A stretch of 64,000 nucleotides of DNA from Natrinema sp. SYSU A 869. Its GTDB lineage: Archaea > Halobacteriota > Halobacteria > Halobacteriales > Natrialbaceae. Position 1 is the first letter of the stretch. Each line of letters starts with the position of its first letter. A program made the translations under genes and the position numbers. Below are positions 17,127-32,469 of the stretch, piece after piece. The notes under the pieces were generated by a model that saw only the letters and a list, made by a program, of their open reading frames with translations, made no database searches and was not told the origin of the DNA. Location of the stretch: contig NZ_CP082249.1 of the NCBI RefSeq assembly GCF_019879105.1, positions 1,736,001 through 1,800,000 on the forward strand, given 5' to 3'.

Positions 17127-17200
17127 GGTCCGGGTGCGAGAATCGAACTACGCGTCTCAGCCTCCACGGGCTGAAGGATTACCACTACCCCAACCCGGAC
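17127..17200 (-). tRNA. tRNA-His (anticodon GTG), structurally aberrant
   Basis: Read on the minus strand, the acceptor GTCCGGG pairs perfectly with CCCGGAC. The discriminator is C, the hallmark of tRNA-His, and the anticodon region holds GTG. The cloverleaf is defective, however. The stem CAGCC/GGCTG encloses only six bases, CGTGGA, lacking the universal U33. The T-stem GCG-T-AG/CTCGC has a one-base bulge. Typical haloarchaeal tRNA-His, as I remember it, has TTGTGGA and GCGGG/CCCGC at these points. It may be a decayed copy, a mis-sequenced gene or a genuine variant. Confidence 0.7.
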
Positions 17201-17373: not shown

Positions 17374-17499
17374 GCGCCGGTGTCCCGCCGAACGGAGTGA
17401 GGCGGGGCTCGGCGCGCAAGCGAACGAAGTGAGCGCAGTGCGCCGGTGGTGAGCAGTTCCAAAGGAACTGCGATCCACGGCGCGAATGAAATGAGCGCC
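17374..17499. repeat. Repeated tRNA-Gly 5' ends and hairpins with a conserved loop
   Basis: The first bases of tRNA-Gly, GCGCCGGTG(G)T, occur at 17374, 17440 and at the gene itself (17495). Between them are hairpins of the form stem-GAAYGRARTGA-stem. At 17384-17406 CCCGCC/GGCGGG flank GAACGGAGTGA. At 17422-17432 GAACGAAGTGA sits in a weaker stem inside GGCGC/GCGCC. At 17479-17499 GGCGC/GCGCC flank GAATGAAATGA, and its right stem is the first five bases of the tRNA. A separate perfect hairpin GCAGTTCC-AAA-GGAACTGC lies at 17453-17471. There is no coding capacity. Confidence 0.8.
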
Positions 17500-17565
17500 G
17501 GTGGTCCAGTGGTAGGACTCGAGCTTCCCAAGCTCGCGGCCCGGGTTCAATTCCCGGCCGGCGCA
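17495..17565 (+). tRNA. tRNA-Gly (anticodon CCC)
   Basis: The acceptor GCGCCGG pairs with CCGGCGC and the discriminator is A. The D-arm is regular. The anticodon stem CGAGC/GCTCG encloses TTCCCAA, giving anticodon CCC. The T-arm CCGGGTTCAATTCCCGG is perfect. CCA is not encoded. The 5' acceptor strand doubles as the right arm of the upstream hairpin at 17479-17499. Confidence 0.95.
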
Positions 17566-17585
17566 CTTCTCGAGTGGCCCATGAT

Positions 17586-32128: not shown

Positions 32129-32202
32129 GGGCCAATAGCTCAATTAGGTTGAGCGCCACTCTGATAAGGTGGAGGCTCTCGGTTCAAATCCGAGTTGGCC
32201 CA
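32129..32202 (+). tRNA. tRNA-Ile (anticodon GAT)
   Basis: The acceptor GGGCCAA pairs with TTGGCCC and the discriminator is A. The anticodon stem CCACT/GGTGG encloses CTGATAA, giving anticodon GAT. The T-arm CTCGGTTCAAATCCGAG is perfect. CCA is not encoded. An AT-richer segment with cgcttaaac about 40 bp upstream may be its promoter. The 3' 22 bases are repeated twice downstream. Confidence 0.95.
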
Positions 32203-32469
32203 TTTCTGCTGCGAACAACGCAAACGTAGTGAGCCGTGAGCAACAGAAATACAATCAACTTGGATTTGAGCCTTGGCAGTCGCAGCTGGTGAACGAAGTG
32301 AACCAGACCGTCTGCCTCTGGTTCAAATCCGAGTTGGCCCACTTCTCGCGATGAACTAACTCGTGAGTTGCGAGTACGTGCTGCCGCGAGGGTTTGAACT
32401 ACGGAAGACGCATGCTCGCGAGTAAACGAGCGAGACCGTCTTCCGGTGGTTCAAATCCGAGTTGGCTCA
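32181..32469 (+). repeat. Three copies of the tRNA-Ile 3' end with hairpin spacers
   Basis: The 22-bp tRNA 3' end (GGTTCAAATCC then GAGTTGGCCCA) occurs at 32181-32202 (inside the gene), 32320-32341 (identical) and 32448-32469 (one change). The spacers are 118 and 106 bp. Each holds a hairpin just after the tRNA copy, a segment resembling a reversed T-arm (GGATTTGAGCC; GGGTTTGAAC), and another hairpin before the next copy. The first spacer's second hairpin is CTGGT-GAACGAAGTGA-ACCAG (32286-32306), with the same loop as those near tRNA-Gly. There is no integrase or coding sequence. Such 3'-end copies are what site-specific integration into a tRNA leaves behind. Confidence 0.85.

Follow-up and report, generated by a model that had tools for sequence, protein, structure and literature searches.

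Tandem hairpin units carrying copies of tRNA ends beside tRNA genes of haloarchaea

Upstream of a tRNA-Gly gene of the haloarchaeon Natrinema sp. SYSU A 869, hairpins that share the 11-base motif GAAYGRARTGA alternate with copies of the beginning of the tRNA itself, which raises the question of the agent that inserts such an end, or copies it, beside the tRNA it comes from. The locus lies in a stretch of 64,000 nucleotides (contig NZ_CP082249.1, positions 1,736,001 to 1,800,000), hereafter the window, to which the coordinates given below refer. A preliminary description had seen here three hairpins with a constant loop and paired stems, and had taken the compensating changes in the stems as a sign of a selected RNA or single-stranded DNA element, perhaps mobile and specialized for tRNA flanks. 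The three hairpins are present, as parts of larger tandem units with inverted and direct copies of tRNA ends that are found mostly on the 3′ side of tRNA genes. We tentatively interpret them as tandem palindromic DNA units of haloarchaea, resembling repetitive extragenic palindromic (REP) sequences or miniature inverted-repeat transposable elements (MITEs), which would insert at tRNA ends and duplicate them.

Layout of the units and their copies of tRNA ends

The motif occurs three times on the forward strand at tRNA-Gly and a fourth time beside tRNA-Ile (Table 1); these four occurrences in the window compare with 0.23 expected, and none of 100 shuffles attained four. The stem adjoining the motif measures 8 bp in hairpin 1 and 6 bp in hairpin 3 (G·T included), and the first five bases of the tRNA form, as first noticed, the 3′ arm of hairpin 3. 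Hairpin 2 departs from the initial picture of a stem adjacent to each loop, having just 2 bp directly at the motif; RNA folding places its true stem further out, where an inverted copy of the tRNA-Gly 5′ end pairs with a direct one. The two repeats of this 5′ end that had been pointed out upstream are both in the sequence. The leader form reads S-hairpin-S′-hairpin-S, where S is tRNA nucleotides 1-11, and its units precede tRNA-Gly(ccc). Among 14 same-genus tRNA-Gly(ccc) loci with at least 330 bp upstream, this genome included, nine have one or more copies with at most one mismatch and five have none (L074, with 60 bp upstream, is outside the count, as are L067 and L076-L083, which gave no tRNA-Gly(ccc)). 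In L065, a variant, GCGCCGATGGT, is found in both the tRNA and the copy.

In the trailer form, present downstream of many tRNAs of this genome, hairpin A comes first and is followed by part of the tRNA 3′ end in inverted orientation; hairpin B is next, and nucleotides ~53-73 of the same tRNA, from G53 to base 73, stand last as a direct copy. Hairpin A is often closed by the T-run that follows the tRNA and a matching A-run, and hairpin B has the internal loop TCGCAG/ACCGT. Unit and copy together span ~100-140 bp and are tandemly repeated. Nucleotides 53-73 of the own tRNA recur 30-300 bp downstream, with at most 5 mismatches in 21, at 18 of the 51 tRNAs of this genome, while the ends of other tRNAs give 1.26. 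The inverted piece is also tRNA-specific, short and often decayed: it matches at 13 or more of 15 positions in 15/81 units and in 0/81 upstream controls, and the own tRNA averages 11.1/15 against 9.5 for others. A 24-nt version of this comparison is weak (13.7 vs. 12.3), the 15-nt version being clearer. Two distinct tRNA-Ala genes whose 3′ ends are identical (C3:1299261 and C3:3047755) share a closely similar unit, which is what conversion or site-specific exchange via this common end would be expected to produce.

Whole units are present at some orthologous tRNAs and absent from others. Same-genus tRNA-Ile loci carry 0, 1 or 2 copies, with none within five mismatches in 6 of 16, and two copy-less loci (L086 and L093) retain what look by eye like remains of units. 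In L095, a 137-bp unit with its copy stands exactly where L096 and L098 pass from the tRNA into homologous flank. In arrays of at least two copies (n = 31), the match is better for the tRNA-proximal copy in 17, worse in 4 and equal in 10 (P = 0.007), a polarity that fits growth at the intact tRNA and would equally result from polar homogenization. Six sequences from two families have one unit in common at tRNA-Arg(gcg), and in it the stems of hairpin A are rewritten in both arms with their caps kept.

Table 1. Features of the leader array at tRNA-Gly and the trailer array at tRNA-Ile (window coordinates).
Feature	Position	Strand	Basis or remark
Outer (first) direct copy of tRNA-Gly 5′ end, GCGCCGGTG	17374..17382	+	sequence
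Hairpin 1, stem TCCCGCC/GGCGGGG around GA-AC-GGA-GT-GA (17390-17400)	17383..17407	+	RNA fold predicts inner AC/GU pairs
Inverted copy of tRNA-Gly 5′ end (CGGCGC)	17410..17415	+	sequence; paired in RNA fold
Hairpin 2, outer stem CGGCGCGC (17410-17417) / GTGCGCCG (17438-17445), motif 17422-17432	17410..17445	+	RNA fold
Second direct copy of tRNA-Gly nt 1-11 (GCGCCGGTGGT)	17440..17450	+	11/11 match
Leader hairpin X, GA-GCAGTTCC-AAA-GGAACTGC-GA	17451..17473	+	sequence; equivalents in same-genus loci
Hairpin 3: inverted copy TCCACGGCGC, loop GAATGAAATGA (17484-17494), 3′ arm = tRNA-Gly nt 1-5	17474..17499	+	
tRNA-Gly(ccc), host of leader array	17495..17566	+	
tRNA-Ile(gat), host of two-unit trailer array	32129..32202	+	
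Trailer unit 1, hairpin A (TTTCTGCTGC...GCAACAGAAA)	32203..32249	+	
Trailer unit 1, inverted tRNA-Ile 3′-end copy	32256..32272	+	17-bp helix
Trailer unit 1, hairpin B core GGCAG-TCGCAG-CTGGT-GAACGAAGTGA-ACCAG-ACCGT-CTGCC (motif 32291-32301)	32275..32316	+	R1 65.5 bits; among 14 training sequences
Direct copy 1 of tRNA-Ile nt 53-73	32321..32341	+	21/21
Trailer unit 2, hairpin A region, bounds approximate	32343..32389	+	sequence
Trailer unit 2, inverted T-loop piece (GGGTTTGAAC)	32390..32399	+	sequence
Trailer unit 2, hairpin B core	32403..32444	+	R1 57.4 bits; training sequence
Direct copy 2 of tRNA-Ile nt 53-73	32449..32469	+	20/21

Hairpin caps and distribution

What had been described as an 11-base loop is itself a covarying short stem, with tandem G·A mismatches, two inner pairs and a GNA triloop. 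Both inner pairs form in all 14 aligned hairpin-B cores, the outer one being A-T in seven and G-C in seven. Among 104 distinct GA-NN-NNN-NN-GA sites with at least three of five flanking pairs, the triloop is GNA in 80, and 179/208 inner pairs are Watson-Crick, against 50/204 at sites with at most one flanking pair. RNA folding places pairs inside the loop in hairpin 1 and the Ile hairpin and not in hairpin 3, where the inner pairs are A-T/T-A. The cap recurs in hairpin A, where the loop is longer, as GAGC...GCGA in 17/35 and GAAC...GTGA in 9/35. The covariation first reported is real; the 38 two-sided cells counted in A1 were attained in none of 500 shuffles. RNA folding recovers the nesting of the hairpins, with z = -7.1 for the 85-nt Ile hairpin. 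A kink-turn reading of hairpin B was dropped, as no 3-nt bulge was visible by eye beside the GA pairs. Mini-hairpins of the d(GCGAAGC) type are unusually stable, and the units provide naturally occurring material on which GNA-capped DNA hairpins can be tested.

A genome-wide check of the motif near tRNAs had been set beforehand as the test of the locus. In the 5.67-Mb genome, with its 51 tRNAs, GAAYGRARTGAG occurs at 24 places, nine of them within 300 bp of a tRNA where 0.14 would be expected (binomial P = 1e-14); these nine belong to six tRNA loci and are hence not independent, and the remaining 15 lie away from tRNAs. The proposal of a structured element specialized for tRNA flanks is borne out. 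Hairpins with 11-nt GA...GA loops show no clear general excess (5 vs. 2 in one Markov control, for stems of at least 6 in a 464-kb sample that includes the window), and the idea of such an excess away from tRNAs was dropped. One tandem pair of GA-loop hairpins, with GGTCTTTTAGCGTAGATTTTTGCGCC in between, has no tRNA within 300 bp (L019, G000:C3:3847010-3848074).

A covariance model, as the preliminary description had called for, was built from 14 hairpin-B sequences with no tRNA part. This model, R1, matches 23/25 relatives at an E-value of 0.01 and, in a sample of 294 genomes of the phylum, 51/53 of the same order against 2/241 others, both weak. Genomes free of units include G120, G155 and G024. 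Of 90 central R1 matches examined, 62 lie 32-274 bp 3′ of a same-strand tRNA: 44/50 of the best, 16/20 picked down the list and 2/20 taken deliberately from repeat-rich genomes, that is, 60/70 when the 20 deliberately chosen loci are set aside. Two further matches (L511 and L522) were judged by eye to be tRNA-linked, and L499 is excluded from the linkage and copy-match counts. The orientation of linked matches is strictly tRNA-sense, and at the 62 linked matches the copy agrees with its own tRNA at 21.5/24 positions and with other tRNAs at 14.4. The own tRNA end was found downstream in 92/142 loci and a random other tRNA's end in 16-30/142; single copies at six mismatches are not safe evidence, and this set, which contains no tRNAs called with introns, is enriched for R1 matches, so that the count in this genome (18/51) is relied on instead. 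The family also occurs beside tRNA-Gly(tcc) on the 828-kb Natronorubrum bangense plasmid NZ_CP031306.1, the one plasmid match.

The remaining R1 matches fall mostly in f5/g5 genomes, within a dispersed repeat of ~400 bp that is preceded by a TATA-like box (CTTATAAA) and was seen at L528-L539 (G186, 11 copies aligned) and L540-L547 (G242 and G093). It resembles a family of transcribed RNA genes or a repeat of the SINE (short interspersed nuclear element) type. At L525, the hairpin core lies after a gene that by eye was taken for aspS, and beyond the unit the end of this gene recurs together with its flank (23/25 matches); a core after a similar aspS-like gene, at L488, showed no gene-end repeat by the same test. 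Two plain patterns were tried as search probes and rejected: AGTCGCAN{15,45}ACCGTCT matched mostly unrelated bacteria in viral and genome contigs, with three haloarchaeal titles among 80 listed genome loci (a tRNA on the locus in L229 and L258, none in L285), and the listed matches of ACCGTCTN{4,6}GTTCAAATC in viral contigs were unrelated bacterial tRNA-like or coding sequences.

Origin and maintenance of the units

Chance palindromes can be considered refuted: short stems are common in GC-rich haloarchaeal DNA, but the concentration near tRNAs and the near-confinement of R1 to one order leave this explanation practically no probability. The level at which pairing is maintained is less evident. 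The isolated non-Watson-Crick pairs of hairpin A comprise 18 G·T, 18 A·C and 9 others (the stem finder gave equal weight to G·T and A·C, and sequences entered the count irrespective of relatedness), unlike the acceptor and anticodon stems of 103 tRNAs, which have 32, 1 and 3, respectively (Fisher P = 7e-6). Because G·T equals A·C in hairpin A, the pairing is suggested, though not proved, to be maintained in DNA and not in a transcript. Compensating stems alone, on which the claim of a selected RNA or single-stranded DNA had been based, are thus no proof of RNA selection; causes at the DNA level, including the correction of palindromes by template switching, must be considered, and stem covariation of such origin may be mistaken for conserved RNA. 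A structured RNA of pre-tRNA leaders and trailers, whose hairpins and tRNA-end mimics would guide processing by RNase P or RNase Z or release small RNAs, consequently seems unlikely to us, all the more since 33/51 tRNAs of this genome have no copy at the cut-off used, orthologous tRNAs exist without units, and there is no Rfam family. The strict tRNA-sense orientation, the nested RNA fold and the strong covariation speak in its favor.

In the mechanism that we tentatively prefer, a non-autonomous REP/MITE-like unit would be gained at an intact tRNA end with duplication of that end, so that the tRNA survives. The trailer would be written tRNA(S)-hairpin A-S′-hairpin B-S, with S standing for tRNA nucleotides ~53-73 and S′ for an inverted piece of S. 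The GA/GNA-capped hairpin on the tRNA-sense strand would be a single-stranded-DNA signature read by a candidate DNA enzyme, in the first place a site-specific tyrosine recombinase: the insert has a second copy of the tRNA 3′ part at its distal end, as in the attachment-site arrays of tyrosine integrases. The ~100-140 bp of a unit leave no room for an integrase gene, and none is found within it; such an enzyme may act in trans. Selection at the DNA level or template-switch correction of palindromes may keep the arms paired, and the latter would also maintain the fit of S′ when the host tRNA is a new one. A bolder and rather doubtful version would see in the units a new target-duplicating class, a palindromic single-stranded-DNA unit that copies the host tRNA end in both directions and builds polar arrays without reverse transcriptase, Cas1 or Y1 transposase.

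Several observations weigh against insertion as just outlined. Pairs in the inner cap show an RNA-like bias (G·T 14 vs. A·C 5), as would also suit an RNA element; apical stems (G·T 4 vs. A·C 2) offer too small a sample. The ~400-bp repeat of G186, headed by a TATA-like box in the manner of a transcribed RNA, contains the hairpin core, and at tRNA-Arg(gcg) the copy is identical in 6/6 sequences across two families, which looks like function and not decay; both favor the RNA explanation. Presence and absence give no direction, in that precise loss through the direct repeats mimics gain; the units are, as first suggested, possibly mobile. Family searches found no reverse transcriptase in any of 13 genomes tested, no Cas1 in this genome and five of seven other unit-rich ones (G000, G186, G227, G242, G019 and G093), and no Y1 (HUH) transposase in the unit-rich G019 and G093; Cas1 is present in the unit-rich G267 and G051, and Y1 transposase in six of eight rich genomes. 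Plain insertion, moreover, leaves the inverted internal copy unexplained, which fold-back copying or later correction of the arms would supply.

Fold-back copying without any dedicated enzyme would involve two template switches by the replication fork, at stable mini-hairpins close to the end of a tRNA; it would yield S-loop-S′-loop-S and also keep the arms paired. It agrees with the layout of the trailer, the tRNA specificity of S′, the equal numbers of G·T and A·C pairs in hairpin A, the complete rewriting of stems between species with caps kept, the absence of reverse transcriptase from all 13 genomes, and the dispensability of Cas1 and Y1 transposase. It is nonetheless improbable as the whole explanation, as template switching alone cannot supply the caps and internal loop of hairpin B (GTCGCA/ACCGTC), kept at unrelated tRNAs and across families. 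That the units are ordinary remnants, attachment sites left by viruses, plasmids or islands that integrate at tRNAs and then shrunk by deletion, appears very improbable: the nested hairpins are conserved and regular in size, recur at many unrelated tRNAs, and also exist in a 5′ form. No phage record matches the Ile array, and two core patterns gave no match in viral contigs, a weak negative since together they match 40 of the 90 known matches.

Comparison with known systems

A search of Rfam 15 returned only tRNA matches above the curated score, and no description, name or model of the hairpin units was found in Rfam or in the openly accessible literature searched; the family is apparently undescribed. 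A close likeness is seen with integrated elements in haloarchaeal tRNA genes, such as the integrated genetic elements of Haloferax gibbonsii. According to one report, integrated elements that encode XerC/D produce the same duplication of the tRNA, a direct repeat of the 3′ part adjoining the intact tRNA, and partial tRNAs occur beside full copies (PMC7921747). The units described here differ in being ~100-140 bp long, gene-free and tandem, in having conserved hairpins and an inverted tRNA piece, and in existing also in a 5′ form; they could account for partial tRNAs beside full ones in haloarchaea. The PATEs, SMRs and MITEs of Haloquadratum are likewise short, non-coding, palindromic and multi-copy, but the portion of the source available describes no copy of a target tRNA end, and presents PATEs and SMRs as lacking target duplication (PMC3119063). 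In Methanopyrus kandleri, another archaeon, a palindrome directly follows about half of the tRNA genes; the available text describes it as single, short and specific to that species, without mention of tRNA-end copies (PMC5217627).

The units also share traits with systems from farther afield. Bacterial REP sequences and bacterial interspersed mosaic elements (BIMEs) are multi-copy hairpin pairs with strand-specific structure, as are the units, which differ by their tie to tRNA ends, GA/GNA caps and end duplication, and by the two unit-rich genomes in which Y1 transposase is missing. CRISPR arrays and casposons form polar repeat-insert-repeat arrays with target duplication, in which they resemble the units, whereas the inserts here are related hairpins and this genome has no Cas1.

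A minor observation concerns the flank of the leader array. On the reverse strand, 17128-17199 is tRNA-His-like with a low score (37 bits, no ARAGORN call) and divergent from tRNA-Gly, and similar sequences occupy the same position in several same-genus loci.
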